A stretch of 64,000 nt of DNA, taken from Paralichthys olivaceus. Lineage: Eukaryota; Chordata; Actinopteri; Pleuronectiformes; Paralichthyidae. Made by a program: the position numbers and the translations under genes. How positions within the stretch are numbered: position 1 is the first letter of the stretch; each line of letters opens with the position of its first letter. The DNA lies in assembly GCF_024713975.1 (NCBI RefSeq), contig NC_091107.1, positions 11,893,501-11,957,500 of the forward strand, written 5' to 3'. Under the pieces are notes generated by a model. It was not told the origin of the DNA. It made no database searches and saw only the letters and a program-made list of their open reading frames with translations. Of this stretch, positions 6,922 through 53,765 are shown in pieces.

Positions 6922-7909
6922 GTAAAGATGCTTCCATATATTCCACCTGTGATTTATCTTGTGCTGCAGAAAACTGAATGAGTAGCGAGGAAAGATTCGT
7001 TTTTAATTGAATAAAGCAACACATTTACCAACACTATCTTTGATTATTAGTTTTTACATGGGACACACTGTTATCCCTGCAGCCACTTCCAGGCAGTGGT
7101 AGAGCAGATTGTGTGTGGGTGTACGCACAGCATTGTGTGTGTGTGTGTGTGTGAGTTGACTGTAAGGGCTGGTTTGTTTATTGTTTGTCTGGTAGCTCCC
7201 TTCTGTGTTTTTTGGGTGCACCACAGTAATTGCAGAGGGCAGTCGCGGTTGGATGAGCCCGAGAGGACATTTAGGGGTTGCATAGGGGAGAAGGGCATTG
7301 TGGGTTGGGGGTGGATGGGGGAGACAAGGGGGCCTCGTCGTGAGGGAGCAGTGAGGGAGCCCCACTTTTCTCTCTTGGGTCCAGTTTGGACCAGTTCTCT
7401 AGCGAACAGCAGAAACTGTGACACCAGTGCAGAGGCTTCAGTTATTATAATACCTGTGTTGTGACGTAAGAGCAGAGTGATGTAATGATCTTTGCACTAT
7501 AGCAGGAGAGTTAATCATTGGCCATCTATGAGATAGTTTAGATCTTTAGTGTGAATGTCATTACCTCTCCTCTTTGTTTAGATATAAGGGGTCAATTAAT
7601 CAAGACAAACAGAGCATGGTAATTTTCTTACTTGAAAACAAGTTATATTCATTTGGGTGAAAAGTTAAGTGGTTTTATCTTGTGATCTTTTAAAACTCAC
7701 ACCTTCCTGTCTGTCAGTGAGTTCAGTGTGATAGGCTAACTATAAAACCTCCCCCTTCCTCTCCACAGATAAGTGATCAGAGATCCTTCATCCTGAGCGT
7801 CAGTCAGGGAGACTCTCTCTCTCCGAGCTTCCAGCCTGCTCTTCTCCTCCCTCTCTCTCTCTCTACCTCCACTGACTCTCCTCTACCTGTAATTTCCTAC
7901 CCCTCAACC

Positions 7910-10900
7910 ATGGCTCCAACCCTGGCCACGGCTTTCGCCAAGCGCTGGTGGATGGCAGTGACTGCTATCATTGAGAATCTGCTCTTCTCTGCCGTGCTGC
8001 TGGGATGGGGGTCGCTCCTCATCATGCTCAAATCCGAGGGCTTCTATTCGTACCTTTGCAATGAGGAGGGTGAGTCATAACTACTGTACTTTAGAAAGGA
8101 CACACACTCTTTTTCTCCTACTTGTTCCATTTAACATTTCCACACATGGGCCTAGATTTCTCATGTTTGGGGCATCTGTCTTCATAAGTTTATAGTGAAA
8201 AACTTATTGGCACAACTATTTGCTGTTAATGTAAGGATTTGTGGAGATGGGTCAGTCAGTGAGTATCATCCTGATTTAGGATGAAGGGACAGGAGCAAGC
8301 TTTTATTTAACACACGTAACTCAACACTGCTTCCGTCTTGCCTCTTTCATTCTTTCAGAAGAATACTTGTTTTATGTGACGGGGTCATGAGCTGTCTTTG
8401 CAGGGTCCTGGGAGATTAAACCTGATAAGTTAAATTAAACAGAGAGCCAGGGTTGCAGGCGGGCAAAGTGGTCCAGAGGTAAAAAGGCTCCAGTGTAAGG
8501 CAAGTCCAGCTAAAGTGGCTGCAGACTTATTGAGAGACAACTGATAAACACACAAGGGAAAGACAGAAAAGAGTCAGACCAGACTTATCCTTTGGACCTG
8601 AGGTGACACAGTGTTGTTCCCTGACTGTGCTGAGCACTGCTGAGGAAGTAGACACCAGGCTACTGGTTGGAATCAGGTTTTGTCTCTCTCACCATTGATT
8701 TACCAAACTCGTTATTGGTACAGGAGGATTCACAGAATCCTTTAATCCTGTCCCCAGACAACTTTGTCGGACACTTGATTTGATCTTTCAAATCATTTAG
8801 CAGCAAATTCTACCAAGAACCTCCAAATAATCAACACCGTGCACCACCCTGCAGTACAAGTAATCTGTGATGCTCAGCACCGACACACACTCCCACCACT
8901 GAAGCAACAGTCGAGCATCCACGACTGTAGGTGACTTCCTGGGGCAAAGCCACAGCCGTCTTATCTTGTTGTGATGATATAAGAAGGGAGAGGACAGCAC
9001 CAGCTCAGCTCTTTCCAGGCATGTGACCGGTGATACAGAAAGATCCACAGCAGGGTTTTATTACTGGTAATATGGAAGCTTAAAGTCCACAGATAAAGGG
9101 TCAGAGGACTGATAGTAAAGTGATGAACAGTAGAAAAGTCAGATCTGTGGTGGAGGCTGACAGTCAGAATGAAACGTCGGAACACAAGATAACATAATGT
9201 TGCGGTGCAGGAATTTTAGATATGAGGGGAATGAGTATAAAGCTTGATTTTTCTATGCAGGTCATTGAGTACAGTGGGTACTACTTCACTTTAGATATTC
9301 AGTCTAATATGGTATGGACATTTATTTCTCATGTAAACATATTTGCTCTATGAGTTCACAAGTGTTACTTTAGAACAATTTTAGAGTAGAATACAAAATC
9401 TTTATTTTCTACTTGCATGGAAATGTTGCCTTTGGGAACAAAGCAGGGTGTGATAAGACATTTTAAAAAGATACATGACAAAGACAGTTCATTTATTTAA
9501 AAAAAGACTTTTGCTCATTCTCCCTAGACTTTATCCGTATATGATCTTTCATGCATTTTACCTTTTAGTACACAAGGTATCTCATGATATTTCAATGAAA
9601 TCAGACAAACAAAACTATCAGTCCTTCATGCACAGTTTACTCTGTTCACCTTCATCATTCAACTGTATGTCTTATCACTCACTTGATCACCTTTGCCCCT
9701 CGCTGCTGCTTATCAGTCAGATGTTACTGTAAAGACTTTAAGCGACTCATGGAAAGGTTCGGCTGAGAGATTTATGATTCTTTTCTTCTGTTTTCTAAAT
9801 CTAAGACTCTTTCAAGGCTTTATAAGTTATCAATGATATAAGTTGTGTTATTTCCCCATGTCTCTACCTGGTGCCGTCTATAAATATCTATAAAATAATT
9901 AATACTAAACCATTTAACAAACATACATACGGAGGTAGACAGTTATAACAGTGGTTAAAGGGAATATGTGCATATAGTCTGTTGAGCCTTTTTATTTATG
10001 AGTTCATTCTCCACATTTTTGTACAAGATTGCATTTGCAGATAATGTGACCCTTCATGCCAGTCTTTATTTTGTCAGAGGATGAGAAAACATTACGTGTA
10101 TTTTTGAAGAATCAATGAAAGGCTCTCACAAGCTTTTATTTAGCTCCATTCTGCTCAATCTAATCTTCCTGCAACAACAACAACTACCAAACAACAGGAA
10201 ATACTATCTGCGTTTTAGACACACTTTCCAAACAACTCCCCCGCTGCAGCCTTGCTTCCCACAAAATGTGTTTGATCCGGGTTCCTGCATGAAGACTTTG
10301 TCACTTTGTAACGAAGCACGTCATGGTGTTTCGCACAGGGATGCTACAAACACACTTGCCTCCTATGACTACAAAGACAACAGAGAGGTGACAAGGAGGT
10401 TAACCCAGAAAGCATCGGCTCATACATCACGACCAATAAGTTTCCAAACTGCTGCTGCTCTTCCCTCCCTCTTCCTCTTCACTTGGACTCCTCCTGAACC
10501 TTTGTACTTTTTTCACATTATCTCATTGCAGGTTGCAAGTTAATGAGAAGTTTATTGCCAGTGCTAGTTTATCACTTTGTATCCCTGGCATTCCAACTAA
10601 CTAATAAAGTAGTATAGTTTAGGAGCTGAACTCAAGACACTTACACACGATTATTCACCATCTGTGTGTTTTCGTTCATCAGTATGATCAAATAAAGACA
10701 ATGTTCAAAATGGAACCATCTTACCTGAGAGCACATTTTCTTTACATGCCTCTCCGAAATGTGTCTTTACACCTAATCCTCTTCCTATTTCCATCATGTT
10801 GTGTAGGTAACAGCTCCAGCTATAATCTGTCTCTGCCTGACGCAACGCCGACACCTGATGAGTACGCTGACTACTATGAAGGTGAGGATGCTGTGGTCGG

Positions 10901-13900
10901 TCTGGGAGACGGTGTGGAGATGAGGCCCCTCGTGCCGATGGACGGGCCCCTGAGGATGAACGGCTGGCTGATCTGTAAGGAGCAGGACGAGATGCTGAAC
11001 CTGGCATTTACCGTGGGCTCCTTCCTGCTCTCAGCCATCACGCTGCCTCTGGGGATCGTCATGGACAAATATGGGCCTCGCAAGCTACGACTGCTGGGCA
11101 GGTAAGAAAAGCAGAAAATGATCCAGAATAACTATGAAGCAATGATTTTCCATTCTGGGAACCAAACTCTGTTCACTTCCCTTGTATTTATTGAAATTCA
11201 ATTTGTCATAAGTAGAGTTTGACACTGTTGTCTATTTCCAGCACATGCTTTGGACTGTCCTGTCTTCTCATTGCTTACGGAGCATACAAACCAAATGGTA
11301 AGTATACCTGACGAGTGCATGTAGACCTATGGCAATGTACAGTAGTTTGGTCTTGGAAGACTCATGACCTGTTTTGTGTCATTTGCAGAACTCTCTGTCC
11401 TTATCTTCATTGCCCTGACTTTCAATGGCTTCGGGGGCATGTGCATGACCTTCACCTCTCTCACAGTAAGTGTGCGCACGTTCTAGCGTGTGCTTTGAAT
11501 TCCCCCTGCTGTAGAGCCTTTGCACCAGCTGCATGGTGTTTGTCCAGATGTATATTCTCTATCTTCATAGGTCTCTTTTCAGTTCGGTGTTAATAGTTTG
11601 TATAATAGTTTTCTGGCTCCCCCGTCCGCTCACCCTCTCCCTCCCCTCTTGTCTGGCATTCCTCCCTGTCTCCTGTTCTGTGTTGTCTGTTTGTTTTTTT
11701 GGCTCCTTACACTGCACTCTGTGTTCCTGAGGACAACTGAGCTCAGCTTTGCAAAGCAGGAAGCAGAGACTGATTGGAAAGAGAGAAAGTAGCACAATGG
11801 TTCATTATCACTGTCCACTGCATTTATTTTTGTGCCTCAGCAAGAACATCATGGAGAGCACGTGCACAAATATTCACTGTTCATATTAGTTACTATTTGG
11901 AAAAAAATGTATTGAAGCACAACTTGCAATTCAGCATCATCCTCAAAAACTGAGACGAGAGGCACCAGAGTAGAGTCAGTGCTAATTTTCTGTTTCACCC
12001 TGTGGAAAGTTCAAGGGAAAAGACAGAAGTATAAATCATAAATCCACATCAGTCCGTTTTCCAAGCATATTTAGTTATTGTTATAGGGAAGTTGGGGAAG
12101 TGATTGGTATTGCATACCCTTAACATTTTTAGCCTCAAGATGGACCTTTACGATAATTGTTGCCTAACTTATGCTAACATGCAGTATCCCATGATTTATA
12201 ATTTCATTGCAGGAATCAGGTACCAATACTATTGTTGCTTGAATGTACAGACAATGGGAAAGTAGAATGGTACTCAGTAGACCACATACCTGCGCCAAGG
12301 CCCAACACTCTCCTTAAATTCAATCCTGGTATAAATTGCAATCATATACAGATATCAGTTCCCTAAATATGCCATAAAAAAATATTGGATCTGTCCCTTT
12401 GTCCGGATCTGTGCCAAAATTAAATGTGTTCTTTCTTTGCCCGAGACTCTTCCAAAAGTTGGTGGAAATATGTTTTTTAGTAAAACTTGGAATAATCCTG
12501 CTGAGAAACAATCAAGTTAAATCAAGCAACAAACAAACCAGTGGACAGGGGAGAAAACTCCTTTGCATAGGTAACTCAGCAGAACGCATACCTCCACCTA
12601 GGCCGAACAGTCCCTTCAAGTTCCACTCCACTCCACAAAACCTGTAACCAAATACACAGGGAGAGAAAAACAACTGAGAATCTGCAGAGTTCACACAGGT
12701 CAGTCCTTCACCATTCCTTTGCATTCTTCCCGTGCCATTCTTCATGCTCCTGTTCCCTCCCGGTGCCATCAGTTCAGCCTACACACAGGAGTCCTGGCCT
12801 GTACCATGGTGATGCTTTTCACAAGAGAGGGGCTCTGCTGCAGTTAATCACCCAATAAAACATTCACTTTCTATACCACCACAGGCTGCATAGTTCATCT
12901 CCTATGTGGCATTAGCTGCATCCACCTAAATCTCTCATTAGTAGCTGCCACTAGCTTTAATGTCAGTGATGTAAAACCGTGGATTTACACAGGAGGCCTC
13001 CAGAGTCTCGGTATAAAATACATGTTTCCCCCTTATGTCCCCTTCCACATCATCACTTTCACACCCTAAAGTCAGTGTTGGTTAATAATTAGACTCCATG
13101 TTGCTCCTTAACTCCTTGATTACGACTCCACCTCAGAACTACAAGCAATCGTTCATTCTGACGCCGGCTCCCTGCTAAAGGTCACATCTCTGCCCCAGGT
13201 TTGTCCTAATGTATCTGTAAAGTTCAAAACCCCCCTGCAGCAGTTATTTTTCATGTACCCTGTGCTGATAAAAGTGTAACGTTCTGTAACGTTCTGTGTA
13301 ACAGTGTCCCTACTCCCTCAGACACATGCACATGCCTCTTCCTCGCACCCCCCTCCCTCTCTTATGTAATTCAATGTGCTTGTTGTTGCTCAGTCTCACG
13401 AAAACAAAACAGCTTGTGAATGCCTTTGTATTTGGGTGTTTTTGTTGCCACCCACTGTCTCCTGCCTGTTTTCATCTCCCTGTTCTCTTTTCCTCAAAAG
13501 CCAGTCAGAGAAAATTAACTCTCGTCTTTGTCTGTCCTCAAAGCATATCCTTATTCCTCGATCGTCACCCCACCTCAGTTGCCCTCGATCACCGATTGTT
13601 TCAGCTGTATAGACAATGTTTCATATCGCTTTTGCTGGTGTGTCCCCCCCATGGCGTCAGGCTCAGAGCAACCAAAGAGCAGCTGAGATCACCAGGATCT
13701 AGACACTAGATGATTTAACCTTTATACTCATATTAACAATGGGAAACTTCCTCCTGACTCATAAAAGCAGAATCAGGTCATGATGATATTATAATCGTAT
13801 TAAAGTCTAAATTCAAGATCTGTCTGTGTCTTCTCTAGCTGCCCAACATGTTCGGGGACCTCCGCTCCACCTTCATCGCTCTTATGATCGGGTCTTATGC

Positions 13901-16900
13901 ATCTTCAGCCGTCACATTCCCTGGTGTCAAGGTAACAAGCTCTGAAGCACACATCCACACGCCTGCGCTGACATTATATATGTTAGCAGTTTTTTTTTAT
14001 AGCTCCTATGAGTGTTATTCAGTCTTTTACAACATAATGTAAAAACATAATAACATAAGCTGCCATAACTCTTCTTAAATGCGGATCACAACTGCAACCA
14101 CATGTTGTCTAACATGTTAACTGAGTGATCCTGCAACATCAGAAGACATTGTGCCTCCTTGTGGTACTATAAAATCATCCTCAATTTGTATTACCACCAC
14201 TGAGAAAACGATCTTTCCCAGAGAACATTACGTATGTAGCCACTTATTGAACATTATTGGGCTGTAACCGTGTGCAATGAAGGACATATGACACCAGAAG
14301 CAGATTTAAAATATCGAAACACTGGATTTCTTATATATGTTGTCTTTTCTGTTGTTTTTTACATGTATTTGCCATGTTGTGATGTGTGCAGGTGATCTAT
14401 GACATGGGCATATCTTTCATCTCTATTCTGGTGGTGTGGGCTGCCTGTGCTGGAGTGGTCTTCCTGAACTGTTTCTTCAACTGGCCACTGGAACCATTCC
14501 CAGGACCAGAGGACATGGACTACACGTTAGTGCCATAGATCAATTAAACAGTCTATAGTGTTACTCTGAGTTGATATTCTCATTCTCATTAGCTTTTCCT
14601 GCAGTTCAAGATGTAATTATGTAATATGCTGGGGGGAAGTGCTGTGTACTATGCTCTAGGTTAAAGTCTATCTGCACACTCATCAACTGAACCTGCCTAT
14701 TGAGCAGAAGACTTGATGACAGTCTACTGACTCACATTAAGACTCATCACAATTTTCTATTCATGATATTTACTCCATCTTTTCTATTCCTCCATCACCC
14801 CCTCCCCTCTTATCTCATCTGCCCCCCCCCCCAGTGTGAAGATCAAGTTTAGCTGGCTGGGCTTTGACCACAAAATCACAGGGAAGCAGTTTTACCGGCA
14901 GGTGACAACGGTGGGCCGCCGTCTCAGCGTGGGCAACAGCCTGAAGCAGAAGGAGCTCGCCACCAAGGACGGCCACAAGCTCTGCCTGTCCACCATGGAC
15001 CTGGAGATGGATTGCAAGCCACAAGAAGAGTGTAAGGGAGCAGAAGTTGAAGTGACAATCGTAGTGAGAGTAGATCCGGTGCACATCATTGACTTGTTTA
15101 TCTTCTCTGCAGCCCAGTCATTCCTGAAAAGCATCATCAGCCCGATCTTCCTGCTCAGCGCTTTGACCATGTCCGTCACGCAGCTTCGTCTCTTGTTCTA
15201 CATGGGGGCCATGAACAGCGTCCTGGAGTCTCTCAGCGACGGAGACCTCAACACAGGTCTGATTGGTGCTTTGTTTATGACACAGGCTGCTCAGTGATAT
15301 ATTTGATTGACAAGATTTCAATGCCGCAGGACTTACTTGGTTTTCATTGACTTTTCAGTGGAGAGAATGGAAGTTGGTAAGACTATTGTTGTATTAGTAG
15401 TTTAAACTTTTAACTTTTAGCTGACATCTACTAGAACTAGAATGTTACTTCGTAGAGCACATAAACCTCCACCCAGGCCCAACAATCTACTTAAAGCTGC
15501 ACTAAGTTTCACACACTCGTAGATATCAGTTCCCTGAATGCATCTGATATTTTTTCATGAACATCAATGATATTCCTATCTTCTTATATCCCTAGAGAAA
15601 CAGTAAAAATGTACAACGGCAAATAAAGGCCCTATCTTGCAGTGTTTAAAATGTTATTTGGATCCATACCAAAATTTAATGGGTTCACTCCTGACCCATA
15701 CCACATCCTTCCACCAAGTTTCATGGTAATCCATTTATTCGATTTTACGTAGTCTTGCTTACAATCACTCAAAAAAACAAACGGACAGGGGTGGAAACAG
15801 AACCTTCTTGGCCGAGGTTATTCTAGTCATGTCCAGGCCTGTCATTGCAATCTAATACTCCTCTACCGTGACTTCCTGTCACAGCTTTAGTGTTTCATCA
15901 TTTGACCTTGGCTCTTGTCCATAACACAGTCTTTCAGCTGTTATTCAGCTTTAACCTGAAGTCACCAGGTATCATTTGCTGTACTCATTAACTAACTTTG
16001 CCCCTCAGCACCTGCAGAGATTACACATCATATGAGCAGTTTCACATGGCTCATTTATCATTAGTCCCCCCAGACCATAAATCCACCTAGTAATGACCTT
16101 GTATTAACTTTTGGCTTCTCCGTATCCAACTCTTTCACTAAGTATTATGGCTCCAGCAGTTATAACAAGACTAATAATTAACAATGACATAATTTCCATT
16201 AACCAGGGTAGAAAACAGTCCCTCCTTCTAATCTTAACCTCATTTTTTTCCCATTTATTTTCAATTTTAATCGTTTTCATCCTTTTCCCCTCTCTCCCTC
16301 AGTGAGTCTCTACTCCTCCATCTTTGGCGTGCTGCAGCTGCTCTGTCTGATGACCACGCCTGTGATTGGTCAGATCATGGACTGGAAACTGAAGGACTGC
16401 AGCGATGGAGCGGAGGAACAGGAACCCTGCAGCAAGTGAGTCAAAACCACTAAACACCCACGATGGAGGATAAACCCCCAAACCCCCTGTGTGTCTGAAC
16501 CCCTTTTCATTTATATAACCAGACATTAATATTGACAGTATTTGTCAGCGTAGTGAAGGAGGAATAGAACCTAGAAGCTATCCTGTATTGTGAAATAAAG
16601 TTGTGGTATCAATGTCTGATTGTCTGACCTCTTCTCTGTCACAAGGGACGAGCCAAAGAAAAAGCGTAGAGACAAAAAGACCCAGAAGGTGACCAATGCC
16701 CTGCGAGCATTCCTCCTCACGAACATCCTGTTGGTAGGATTTGGGATCACATGCCTGGTGCCCAATCTCCCCCTGCAGGTGAGTGGTCCACTTCTGCCAC
16801 ACACAGGCCATCGAGTACTTCAGGAATACAGCTGCCTTACTAACAGTGTTATCACTGTCTCTTTGTAAAGACATTACTAATTAACCTCAGGCTGTTGGCA

Positions 16901-21910: not shown

Positions 21911-33711
<11,801 letters not shown>

Positions 33712-42434: not shown

Positions 42435-45400
42435 ATGGACCCCTTGACAGGCAGCCCTCGTTTGCGCTCAGACAGCATGAGCAGCTCTGCATCTCAAGGC
42501 TCGAGGTCCAAGGTGCTCCTCCGCCAGCGTCTGGCCCAGCTGCTGACCTGCATCGAGGACCTGAGCTCTGACGATGAGGCCAGCGAGGAAGTGTCCCGCT
42601 CACTGGACGAGGCGTTTCAGCTCTGTGGAAGCTACATTCCCACTGACGCATTCAGGTTGATTTTGAAAAATGTGGATATCAAAACTTTATTTTTACAAGT
42701 TATGGAAATATTCAGACAATTGTGATTACAATTTCAAGGGAATGTGACCTATGTAACTGATAATAGTTTGTATTTTCTGTATTTCCATCACTTTGATTAA
42801 TTACTGTCATTAACCAAAAACACACACTTCCAGGCTGCACATGGTGACCTGGAACGTGGCCACGGCAGAGCCTCCTGAAGACGTCAGCTCTTTGCTGCAG
42901 CTGGATGTCCAACCCCCCACAGATCTCTATGTGATTGGGTCAGCAACAAAATGTGGAACCTGGCACTTAATTTGTCACATTGGATATGACAGAATGCCAG
43001 TATTTGTAATGATTTGATGTGTGTGTGTGTGTGTGTGTGTGTGTCAGCCTGCAGGAGGTGAGCTCTTCGCCTGTGAGGTTCATCTCAGACCTGTTGATGG
43101 AGGACTCATGGAGCCACGTCTTCATGGACACACTGGCCCCCAGAGGATTCATCAAGGTGAGAGCAGACAAAGGCAGGATGAGGGAAACTAGTGTGTGGAC
43201 TGATGTTAGTAAAGATGTGTGAGGAAACAGGTGTAGGTGAACAACTGGTATAAATAATACTAACCTGAGGCCCTACTGTAAAAAATAACAATAATAATAT
43301 AATAGCTTATACTGGGTTGTTTCACTTTTTCTAATGTCCACACATTGTGAGTTTTTTAGCTTTTCATTGTATTTGGCTGTGTCTGTATTTTTAAATAAAC
43401 TACCTGAAGAACAACTCATGTTTTTTCAAAATCATCAAGCCAAAAAAAAATTACAGAAATAGAGGATTATTTTCCACTAAACACACCTCTCATACGTCCG
43501 AGTACTTGAATTGTTAACTTTACTCACAGCAGCCTGAATAACCACTGGGTTATTGACAATGATTTTAAATTCTCATTCTATTGTTCTCTGGTGTCTACGA
43601 GGATATTTAAAGGGTGTAAGGAAAAAACTTGTCTTGCTTTTGTTGACGACTGAGTTGTAAAACAATACTTTATTTTGTAATGGATCACTGCACCTGTACC
43701 TTTTGGTGTCTTGTATACCAATGAGGGTTGATCATATTTAACATAAATTGATAAATAATCCTGCAGTGTATTTGATACAATAATGTAATTCATGATATTC
43801 CTTTAATAGAATTTGAAACTGAACAAAACTCTCACTCTCTCTCTCTTTGTCAAGGTGACATCAGTGAGGATGCAGGGTTTGCTGCTCCTGGTTTTCGCCA
43901 AACAAGTCCACCTCCCCTACATCAGAGACATCCAGACCACCTACACTCGCACCGGCATCTTCGGCTACTGGGTAGGAAATCACAAGGCGAGCGCACGTCA
44001 GCTCTGAGCCTCAAAGATGACAACAACATGGTTAAACCCAGCACACCAGGAATCCCACTAGCATGAGATGCGGTGGAGTTTAAAGAAACTATGAAAGGCC
44101 TATTGTGTTTGTTTAGTGGAACATCAACAGCTTTTACTGAATGAAATCTCAAACAAAGAACACTCAGTGCTGGAACTGGTACATCCGAGGAAAACACCTC
44201 CACTACAAATGGTTGAATGCATGATTCAAGTTAAAGGAAAAACTTTATTTGATCAGTTTTTTTTAATTGATGCTAAAACTGGGAATCAATAAGTGTTCTT
44301 GAAATAGTATGTGTGATTTTCTTTTTGGTAAATACTGCAGTAGATGTCATGATTGTCTGTATTGATTCATGAAACACTGTGATCTACTTCAAATACTCAT
44401 TTACATTCCTCCCCCTCTGTTTATCTGTGTTAGGGTAATAAAGGAGGAGTGTCCGTGCGTTTCTCTTTCTACGGCCACATGGTGTGCTTCCTCAACTGCC
44501 ACCTAGCAGCCCACATGAACTACGCTCTGCAGCGCGTCGACGAGTTTGAGTACATCCTCGAGGCGCAAGATTTTGACATCAGCGAGAGCCCACACGTGCT
44601 GGACCACAAGTCAGTGCACGCACAAATGCACTGTGGAACATATGCACTGAGGGGTTGTTGAAAGGCAGTTGGCTCCATCCCTCTCTCTCTCTCTATCTCT
44701 CACAGGGTGGTGTTCTGTCTCGGTGACCTGAACTTCCGTATTGCAGACCACGGCTTGCACTTCCTACGCTCGTCCATCAACAGTGGACGCCTTAATTTAC
44801 TGTGGAGCAAAGACCAGGTGATGTGCCAAAATGAGCACAAGCGCACGCACACTCACGCACAAACACTATAATTCTCCCTTGCCAACTTCTGTCGTGTCTT
44901 TGCAGCTCTTGATGATGAAGAAGAATGAAGCGTTCCTGCAGGAATTTGAGGAAGGCCCATTAAATTTTAAACCCACCTACAAGTTTGACCGCAACTCTGA
45001 CACCTATGACACCAGGTAACCTGAGCTTCAAACAAGTCGCCAAAACAGACACACACTTTTCAAACATGCATCCAAACTTCATCTGTACTTCTCTTCCCAT
45101 TTGACTTTTTTGCACAGCTCTCCGAAGACATGGTTTGGTTTTAAGTAAGACCTCTTTTGTGTCGCATGCCGCACGTTCTCTTATTTCTCAGTCACCGCAC
45201 CATCTGTCCTTTTTCCCCAAAGCTTTAGCTGACACGTCTTTGGTTGGTATTTAACATGCACCCCCTGAGGCACACAGACAGAAAACCAAAGCAGAGAACC
45301 CTGATGCATAGATGCAATTGGGAGCAGCTCTTTCTGTGAGTCATATCCGTTCTTGACATGAGCGCCGTGTATGTGTCTCTCTCAGAAAGAGCACTGTGGC

Positions 45401-47196
45401 GCTGCCTCTAACCATGTACAGACCCAGGCCCCTGCAGCGTTGCAGCACCACCCTCTTCTTCCTCCTCACCTCCCTCACATGGGGGCTGCTCTCTGTCTGG
45501 TTGGGGGCCTGGTACAGGGAGCTAGACCCGCCAAGGTGGGTGTCTCCATAGACATGCCCTGTTATTTACATAGGATAGGTTATATAAACATAAAACCTAC
45601 AATCACAAAATAAGTGGAGACACTGATGTAAATGACAAGACAAAAAGGGGTTTAGTAAACTAATCACCATGATGAATTTCAGATGTGATCTGCAAATTCA
45701 TGAAACCGGAGGCGGCTCCCTCCTGCACCCGGCACCCCACTGTTTGTTCCTGCATTATGTATGTCTGGCTTTTTATAGTGAAAGTGCTTAGACATCAGCT
45801 ATATGTCATTATATATCTGTCATTTCTTCACAGCATGCTACAGCTCTGCATCATGTGTTTGTGTGTGTCTGGTTTCTGTTTCCCATATTTTTGTATCAAA
45901 ATAAGAATTGCAAGTTAGGTTGAAATGAATACTTCACACATGTGGTTACCATTAGAAACAGAGTATAACTTTTCAGCCTGTGGTACCAACACCTGTCTTT
46001 GCGTTGCTCAGTGGCAAGAAGAGGAAACCTGCTTGGACAGATCGGATCCTCTGGCGCATCAAACCCAAAGACCTGCCATCGGAGGATGATGAGAAAGCAT
46101 CGACTTCTACCACCGATGGACAGGATGAATATCCAATCATGGTCACCCAGGATAAATACACTAGTGACATGAGCTACGGAGTCAGTGACCACAAACCTGT
46201 CATCGCAACCTTCAGCCTGGAGGTGAGAGCAGTCCTAAATACCACCACTAAGTGAAGGGGTTTTTTTTGTCCATTGTCAAAACTTATCCTCCTCTTGTTT
46301 TTCCATCAGCTGAGGAAATGCTTTGACACCCCGATGGTGCACATCTCTCCTGTGGGTGTATGGAGCGGCGACCAGGATGCAGTTCTTACCTACACCGTCC
46401 AAGAGGACTTCATGTCCTCCACATGGGACTGGATTGGCCTGTACAAGGTACTGAGACAGACATATATTGAAAAAGAAAATGAATGATAAAAGACAGATCT
46501 GACCTCAAGAGGTTGATGTCCTGCAGGTGGGATTCAAGAGTGCGTCCGACTATGAAACCTTTGTTTGGGTGAGGGAGAACGAGCTGCCAGAGACAAATGA
46601 AGTCATACAGGTAAATAACAAATTAGGCTTTAGCATTATATTGTTTATAATGAAAATAAGTTATGAGTGCAGGCTTCGTTATCAGACACGTGTGTGTTGT
46701 GGTTGCAGATATCTGTGGATAAGGATGAGATCCCTCTGCTAGGTGGACAGTATGTTTTGGGTTACTACAGCACAAACATGGGAAGCATCATTGGCCTTAG
46801 CTCAAACTTCCAGGTGAGTCATCTCTCAGTTACTTATTATCATTCCTCCACTGACATAATAGTAATTAATATTCACTGTTATAATGTCAGAAATAGATAA
46901 AGGCAAAATATGGCTCCAGTAATGAACATATAATGGAATTTCTAATGTAAAGAAAAACTATTCATAAACATTGCACTTTACAGGCGAGTAACAGCAGAGC
47001 AATAATATTGAATAGCAATAGGTTATACAGGTGTGCCGAATATAGAGGTTACTGTATTTCCAGTAGTTAATGTGCATGGCAGTAGGTTGGTTCGTTTAAG
47101 GATCCCATCTTTGTTCTGATCTTGCAGATCCTGGAGTCAAAGCGTGCTGTGATGGAGGGTCTCGTTCCTGAGATCATCAACGGGATCAACAAATAA
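42435..47196 (+). CDS. inpp5k: Inositol polyphosphate 5-phosphatase K (SKIP), long N-terminal isoform
   Basis: Coding exons: 42435-42655, 42834-42938, 43048-43156, 43855-43971, 44434-44609, 44706-44817, 44906-45015, 46012-46222, 46310-46447, 46527-46610, 46709-46813, 47128-47196 (TAA); 518 aa. The enzyme removes the 5-phosphate from PI(4,5)P2 and PI(3,4,5)P3 at the ER and plasma membrane and damps insulin signalling. Catalytic landmarks in order: [40 protein letters not shown], the [13 protein letters not shown] stretch, [10 protein letters not shown] and GVSDHKPV. The C-terminal third ([21 protein letters not shown]) is the SKICH domain. The first 73 residues are Ser-rich and then acidic, absent from human INPP5K as I remember it. 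An in-frame stop at 42423-42425 makes 42435 the first possible start in this exon, which begins after an acceptor at 42420, so an upstream untranslated exon is expected. Cassette candidates between 45016 and 46011 are listed separately. Confidence 0.94.
43018..43044 (+). repeat. inpp5k: (GT)n microsatellite replacing the pyrimidine tract of an inpp5k acceptor
   Basis: GT repeats run to within three bases of the acceptor (gtgtgtcag|CCTGCAG at 43048). The next exon encodes the catalytic-site LQEV stretch. Confidence 0.93.
45118..45144 (+). other. inpp5k: inpp5k candidate cassette microexon, 27 nt
   Basis: tttttgcacag|CTCTCCGAAG...GGTTTTAA|gtaaga. Inserted after exon 44906-45015 it reads SSPKTWFGF with the last codon completed by the next exon. 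It starts and ends in the same phase, so inclusion or skipping keeps frame. It has no counterpart in human INPP5K that I know. No transcript was seen. Confidence 0.5.
45386..45535 (+). other. inpp5k: inpp5k candidate cassette exon, 150 nt, encoding a transmembrane segment
   Basis: Acceptor gtctctctcag|AAAGAGC and donor CCGCCAAG|gtgggt bracket exactly 50 codons without a stop. The phase fits both the exon before (directly or through the 27-nt microexon) and the one at 46012. The peptide is basic first ([18 protein letters not shown]), then a membrane-like run ([20 protein letters not shown]), then [10 protein letters not shown]. Reading through the donor gives WVSP and a stop at 45546-45548, so it could also be an alternative membrane-anchored 3' end lacking the PAWTDR motif. 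Confidence 0.5.
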
Positions 47197-53300: not shown

Positions 53301-53765
53301 TAATGCCCCTGCCTATTTGTCTATCTACCTGCAGGTACTTGATGTCCCTGCGTGGCCATGTGGCATCTGTGTATCAAGTGGCGTGGTCCGCAGACAGCAG
53401 GTTGCTGGTCAGTGGCAGCAGTGACAGCACTCTAAAAGTTTGGGATGTTAAGACTGGAAAGCTTAACATGGACCTGCCTGGCCACGCTGATGAGGTGAGG
53501 AAAGATGTCACAGGATTCATGACAGTTGTATATTAATTGGATTTTTCCCCTCTAATACCAATGTTTGTTGTATCTCTAGGTTTATGCAGTGGACTGGAGT
53601 CCTGATGGACAAAGAGTGGCCAGTGGCGGGAAAGACAAATGTCTCCGAATGTAAGTGAAATGCCAAAAACCGTTTTATCTGTTTAGTCAACTGTTAAATA
53701 TCAGTGTTTCCTCTGACCTAACACCGTGGCAATCTTTTGTGTGTGTTCCCAGATGGAGAAGATAG
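50318..53765 (+). CDS. nle1: Notchless homolog 1, WD40 60S ribosome assembly factor
   Basis: Coding exons: 50318-50455, 51125-51345, 51505-51584, 51689-51765, 51852-51949, 52297-52489, 52618-52753, 52842-52888, 52977-53179, 53335-53494, 53580-53650, 53753-53765 (TAG); 478 aa against about 485 in human. The protein (yeast Rsa4) binds pre-60S particles and the MDN1/Rea1 AAA+ machine through its N-terminal NLE domain, and was first described as a Notch modulator. The NLE domain spans about residues 8-75 ([20 protein letters not shown] to the [14 protein letters not shown] strand). A WD40 propeller follows with regular GH...D...WD blocks: [144 protein letters not shown] non-WD insertion ([18 protein letters not shown] to [10 protein letters not shown]) after the fifth of these is typical of the family. 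The last exon codes only for the final IWRR. Confidence 0.96.

Follow-up and report, generated by a model that had tools for sequence, protein, structure and literature searches.

Human INPP5K is recruited to tubules of the endoplasmic reticulum (ER) by a partner, ARL6IP1, as far as the available text goes (PMC9804665; PMC10239392), and the yeast 5-phosphatase Inp54p is kept at the same organelle by a hydrophobic segment of its own, to go by the title under which PMC6562803 cites Wiradjaja 2001; the accessible portions of PMC8157044, PMC11576722 and PMC5372647 do not describe that anchor. In zebrafish, according to the portion of the source at hand, both inpp5ka and inpp5kb are expressed most highly in the eye, Inpp5kb is nearly inactive on phosphatidylinositol 4,5-bisphosphate (PI(4,5)P2) with no residue change explaining why, and phosphatase-independent roles are left open (PMC10239392), while Inpp5ka builds up in the photoreceptor outer segments of bbs1 mutants (PMC8917222, seen in part). 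The inpp5k gene considered here lies on the forward strand of a 64,000-nucleotide (nt) stretch of Paralichthys olivaceus DNA (contig NC_091107.1, positions 11,893,501 to 11,957,500; ‘the window’ below), and its intron 7 holds two candidate alternative exons, of 27 and 150 nt, the longer of which would place a predicted membrane helix inside the phosphatase domain. The comparison with human INPP5K is of the same enzyme with likely the same destination, but there a partner does the recruiting and there is no insert at the corresponding point; Inp54p has its anchor at the C-terminus, whereas the fish helix would be optional and internal to the domain.

Two candidate exons in intron 7

The 518-residue product without inserts has the architecture of a type II 5-phosphatase with SKICH: Pfam matches Exo_endo_phos2 at residues 78-382 (1.8e-68) and then SKICH at 397-497 (1.1e-28), and the closest solved chain is human INPP5K, 22mj_A (2.2e-96, with the form carrying both inserts as query). 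WNV, QE, GDLN.R, PAWTDR and SDH, which we take to be the catalytic motifs of 5-phosphatases, are all intact when read in the translation of this isoform; PAWTDR, presumably the phosphate-binding motif that handles the membrane-borne substrate, occupies residues 323-328, and SDHKPV is at 375. Intron 7 (45016-46011), at 996 nt the longest of the 11 introns of the gene, lies between DTYDTS and the exon that carries PAWTDR. Anything spliced in from it separates S317 from G318, with five residues to go to PAWTDR and some four fifths of the phosphatase domain already behind it, at a point where human INPP5K, aligned through 22mj_A, has no insert. Both this absence in the human enzyme and the position just ahead of PAWTDR had been put forward in a first-pass annotation made from the letters alone.

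Each of the two segments has flanking splice sites, a length divisible by three and a frame open in the phase of the gene, as a cassette exon would. Both keep the phase of exons 7 and 8 at either end, and all four splice combinations stay open, giving 518, 527, 568 and 577 amino acids without an internal stop, and the 27-nt segment yields 10 residues across its joins that differ according to whether it is spliced to exon 8 or to the 150-nt segment. The observation of two frame-preserving candidate exons is thus confirmed, and the coordinates, phases and translations of the first-pass annotation, which had described usable splice sites, a shared phase and four open combinations, proved exact. 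Splice-site strengths (Table 1) are in bits from a simple weight matrix, on which the 11 internal acceptors of the gene lie between -2.8 and 8.8 and the 11 donors between -1.7 and 8.8; the donor of the 150-nt segment, at 6.1, ranks fourth of 13 when both candidates are counted.

How unusual is intron 7 in this respect? A scan of all 11 introns for open, frame-preserving cassettes, in which neither splice site was allowed to score below 0 and neither flank of intron to be shorter than 60 nt, returned candidates in intron 7 only, five in all: the 27-nt segment, the 150-nt segment and, from inner acceptors at 45422, 45446 and 45518, three shortened versions of the 150-nt segment. The rule demands an intron of at least 129 nt, which 5 of the 11 reach (introns 1, 3, 4, 7 and 11), so the uniqueness of intron 7 rests on comparison with introns 1, 3, 4 and 11, the six others being too short. 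Among the latter are introns 8 and 9 (87 and 79 nt), and intron 8 holds no candidate.

Coding character of the longer segment

The 150-nt segment has the look of a genuine coding exon. Its G+C content at the three codon positions is 0.51, 0.55 and 0.82, with third-position values (GC3) of 54-81% across the 12 inpp5k exons, and its overall G+C is 0.62 against 0.32 in 45552-45700. A codon score trained on inpp5k exons versus the introns of the gene gives 26.3 bits over 49 codons in the proposed frame (0.54 per codon), as against -3.1 bits in one of the other sense frames and -7.0 in the remaining one, where two stops are penalised; real exons, scored leave-one-out, were positive in 12 cases out of 12, with 2.8 to 50.2 bits, or 0.09-0.71 per codon. 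In none of 1000 dinucleotide shuffles of intron 7 was there a segment of 120-400 nt that stayed open, preserved the frame and matched the 150-nt segment at both splice sites, a result that is flattered by the spreading of local G+C on shuffling.

A harder control, taken on real sequence across the 64 kb of the window, on both strands, for open candidates of 90-400 nt with an acceptor of at least 3.5 and a donor of at least 4 gave 20 that do not overlap, nine of them at 15 bits or more. The 150-nt segment came second with 27.3 bits (the intron background differing slightly from that above), in the company of inpp5k exon 6 and two exons with Pfam matches (IP_trans and WD40). The five remaining members of that set we take to be exons of an SLC43-type transporter or a multicopper oxidase; as fragments they have no Pfam match above cut-off. 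On the opposite strand an open frame of 74 codons (45341-45565) covers the 150-nt segment, and we read it as a shadow of sense codon use.

A predicted hydrophobic helix

The product of the 150-nt segment runs from a basic stretch through about 20 hydrophobic residues to a short mixed tail, and the prediction that it codes for a basic stretch followed by a likely transmembrane helix has held up. The best 19-residue Kyte-Doolittle window is 1.72, the maximum in the canonical protein being 1.44, and the summed apparent insertion energy over 19 residues is 0.11 versus 6.13 in the canonical protein, falling to -0.74 over 17 residues; both scales were applied with no positional weighting, so that the energy is best described as borderline to favourable. 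The stretch of about 20 residues lies above common hydrophobicity thresholds for a transmembrane segment. Single-sequence AlphaFold2 models the exon product (P0001, 54 amino acids) as one helix over residues 15-46, with block pLDDT values of 92 and 94 over residues 21-40, which as evidence is weak. The basic flank ahead of the helix would favour an orientation with the N-terminus inside. When the exon was shuffled 4000 times, 1204 of the shuffles were open and 10 of these matched the hydrophobicity of the core. Taken alone, hydrophobicity is weak evidence.

The shorter segment and the zebrafish exon

On its own evidence the case for the 27-nt candidate is weak. What brings it to attention is the zebrafish gene pair: for inpp5ka and inpp5kb alike, predicted transcripts include an alternative exon 9 of 27 bp, reported as absent in humans (PMC10239392). 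The gene family is the same and so is the length. Presence in both duplicates would make the exon perhaps older than the teleost duplication. The zebrafish primers for exons 2, 3 and 9 given in the part of that paper available match exons 2, 3 and 9 of our model at 16/20, 16/20 and 16/19 bases; no convincing counterpart emerged for the exon 10 primer, the best being 13/20 in exon 1. In our judgement the odds that the two short exons are one and the same are about even. Both candidates of the first-pass annotation are there, but the shorter may accordingly not be new, with the proviso on exon numbers taken up below.

Immediately upstream of the 27-nt acceptor, TGC stands at -7 behind a pyrimidine run. 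This is the layout of neural microexons dependent on Srrm4, which are alike also in being in frame and of 27 nt, with UGC and a pyrimidine run directly upstream, to judge from the available part of PMC12626420. The likeness is one of layout and is not specific, TGC being found upstream of 5 of the 11 constitutive inpp5k acceptors also, and in one of these at -7.

A possible splice switch

With a little more conviction for than against, we favour the reading that intron 7 holds two alternative exons and that inclusion of the 150-nt exon would give a membrane-held, inactive enzyme, so that splicing would act as an on/off switch. Skipping of both exons leaves the ordinary phosphatase, its motifs intact in the sequence. 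The 27-nt microexon would add nine residues, with an aromatic at one end, just ahead of PAWTDR, and may tune membrane contact or activity. The 150-nt exon would add 50 residues at S317/G318, a basic flank and then a helix of transmembrane grade, and the resulting integral membrane protein would have the first four fifths of its catalytic domain on one side and PAWTDR, SDHKPV and the SKICH domain on the other. With the two parts of that domain on opposite sides of the membrane, the 150-nt form is expected to be inactive, and its built-in anchor would replace partner-mediated recruitment to the ER. It is from sequence that we infer splicing, membrane insertion, the ER as destination, the loss of activity and any role of the 150-nt form. 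A further elaboration, in which fish regulate a change from a soluble PI(4,5)P2 phosphatase to a catalytically dead integral ER-membrane protein, maybe as an ER scaffold or a dominant-negative, with an RNA hairpin at the acceptor setting inclusion, possibly by temperature since the animal is cold-blooded, strikes us as unlikely.

Optional transmembrane segments made by splicing are of a known kind. To our knowledge it is unusual for one to interrupt a catalytic domain, with a catalytic motif on each side (no search was aimed at this point). Were the proposal true, an isoform with a split active site and a membrane helix of its own would separate two functions of the enzyme and offer a natural test of those INPP5K roles that do not depend on the phosphatase, and fish models targeting inpp5ka would need to account for it.

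Weighing the explanations

Several points weigh against this reading. A membrane helix that splits a catalytic domain is an odd device for a regulated isoform, and the part that would be lumenal has no N-glycosylation sequon. Hydrophobicity equal to that of the core (Kyte-Doolittle, 19 residues) is met with in 89 of the 598 open 49-codon stretches of the window. The mirror antisense frame of the 150-nt segment is open too and scores 20.6 bits, so part of the codon score of the exon is high-GC composition; G+C is already 0.48 in the intron ahead of it; and among 1994 open tiles scanned, the 10 that stand out by a very high GC3 include two antisense to the exon and, on the tile grid used, none in its sense frame. 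That scan is no help in choosing a strand, the sense codon score and the splice sites being what does favour sense. For the 27-nt segment the 8 codons together score negative, at -2.85, and an open, frame-preserving segment of 15-60 nt with sites equal to its own turns up in 36 of 1000 dinucleotide shuffles of intron 7. The portion of the zebrafish inpp5k paper available makes no mention of a 150-nt exon (PMC10239392), and, with exon numbers running alike in the two fish, an insert after exon 7 would be number 8, so the zebrafish alternative exon 9 fits the next intron better; it would fit intron 7 only if its transcripts hold one extra upstream exon. No published report of a 150-nt inpp5k exon was found in the abstract openings and passages of the open-licence literature that were covered, and the accessible main text of PMC5339217 contains no isoform term.

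Could the segments be no exons at all? The likelihoods that we attach to the alternatives do not exclude one another. That both are chance open stretches, never spliced in or only as noise, is decidedly improbable: the score of the shorter and the frequency of its like among shuffles speak for chance, but for the longer there are the shuffle result, codon statistics like those of real exons and the strong donor, and the other four introns of sufficient length hold no candidate of either kind. It is improbable, if a touch less so, that the 150-nt segment is instead the last exon of a shorter transcript. Translation running past its donor, as the first-pass annotation proposed, does stop exactly after WVSP, where a TAG lying no more than 16 nt beyond the donor leaves the helix with the kind of short tail usual for tail-anchored proteins. 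The product would be an inactive, tail-anchored protein of 371 or 380 amino acids, without PAWTDR and with the first four fifths of the domain in the cytosol, that could coexist with the cassette form; of the forms considered, it alone would have a single helix close to its C-terminus and little behind it, in the manner of Inp54p. Weak poly(A)-like hexamers lie downstream (TATAAA at 45583, CATAAA at 45589, AGTAAA at 45654 and AATGAA at 45924), but AATAAA and ATTAAA are absent from 45536-46011, and the donor is strong, and because of these two facts read-through is less likely than splicing. The frame is, besides, kept exactly into exon 8.

Might the helix be present and the enzyme nonetheless be active? 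The hydrophobic segment would then stay in, or dip into, the cytosolic leaflet as a loop by the active site of a membrane-bound enzyme, a proposal that we regard as doubtful, to about the same degree as read-through. The insertion adjoins a motif that deals with a membrane-borne substrate, and a lumenal half containing PAWTDR and devoid of sequons would be an odd protein; on the other side, the model has one unbroken helix of a length to span the bilayer, and the hydrophobic run holds no proline, although a single-sequence model is silent on the whole fold. Far less probable than any of these is that the 150-nt segment serves as an alternative first exon, in which the ATG at 45414, with A at -3 (ACCATG), would start a signal-anchored C-terminal part having PAWTDR and SKICH and lacking the N-terminal catalytic part. 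The helix would come straight after a short basic N-terminus, as would suit such a protein, but a fair acceptor at 45385/45386 and an open frame ahead of the ATG would be left unexplained.

Origin, relatives and a possible hairpin

The 54-residue product of the 150-nt exon matches no PDB chain up to an E-value of 10. Pfam offered one match, below threshold, to BcsF, a family of small membrane proteins in bacteria (E 0.031; 14.7 bits where the cut-off is 23), which we put down to shared hydrophobicity. Pattern searches gave 47 and 13 matches in viral contigs and 414 in bacterial and archaeal genomes, none of them confirmed, which has no bearing on conservation in fish. For a transposon origin, blastn of the exon against the 64-kb window yielded, apart from the self-match, 12 matches of at most 21 nt, and no RNA family reaches its gathering score in 44900-46300.

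An inverted repeat, one of five such loci of non-low complexity in the 64 kb, has arms whose pairing would cover the acceptor of the 150-nt exon. The fold model leaves no base of the acceptor AG unpaired, but the same holds for constitutive exon 2, and the energy of the fold is ordinary (z -1.17, equalled by 27 of 200 shuffles). A role for this hairpin is speculation.

Features and neighbours

Table 1. Positions within the window of the inpp5k gene model, the candidate exons and associated elements; scores are in bits
Feature	Position	Strand	Remarks
inpp5k coding region	42435-47196	+	12 exons, 518 amino acids; from exon joins and translation
inpp5k exons 1-6	42435-42655, 42834-42938, 43048-43156, 43855-43971, 44434-44609, 44706-44817	+	
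inpp5k exons 7-12	44906-45015, 46012-46222, 46310-46447, 46527-46610, 46709-46813, 47128-47196	+	
Constitutive exon 7	44906-45015	+	Ends DTYDT, phase 2; aligns to human DYDTS
Constitutive exon 8	46012-46222	+	Carries S and 11 residues, and SDHKPV
27-nt microexon candidate	45118-45144	+	Acceptor 4.8, donor 1.3; open in phase
150-nt cassette exon candidate	45386-45535	+	Acceptor 3.9, donor 6.1; K or R and 49 residues
Hydrophobic core of 150-nt exon	45444-45503	+	About 20 residues, predicted transmembrane helix
Read-through past the 45535 donor	45536-45551	+	Adds RWVSP, then TAG at 45549-45551
Inverted repeat	45327-45392	+	Arms 45327-45340 and 45379-45392, 13/14 pairs, 38 nt between

At the other end of the gene, the first 73 residues of the 518-residue model, mostly from exon 1, precede the start of the alignment with human INPP5K and are serine-rich; they resemble the product of a zebrafish alternative exon 1 with 48-63 extra residues, going by the available part of PMC10239392. 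A TG repeat (43018-43047) abuts the acceptor of exon 3, which at 109 nt is not a multiple of three, and the length of the repeat could affect inclusion of that exon. Elsewhere in the window, 29308-29453 and 53335-53494 are exons with Pfam matches to a phosphatidylinositol transfer protein (IP_trans) and a WD40 repeat, respectively. The exon candidates at 932-2300 and 7769-16778 are presumably those of a multicopper oxidase and an SLC43-type transporter; as fragments they have no Pfam match above cut-off.

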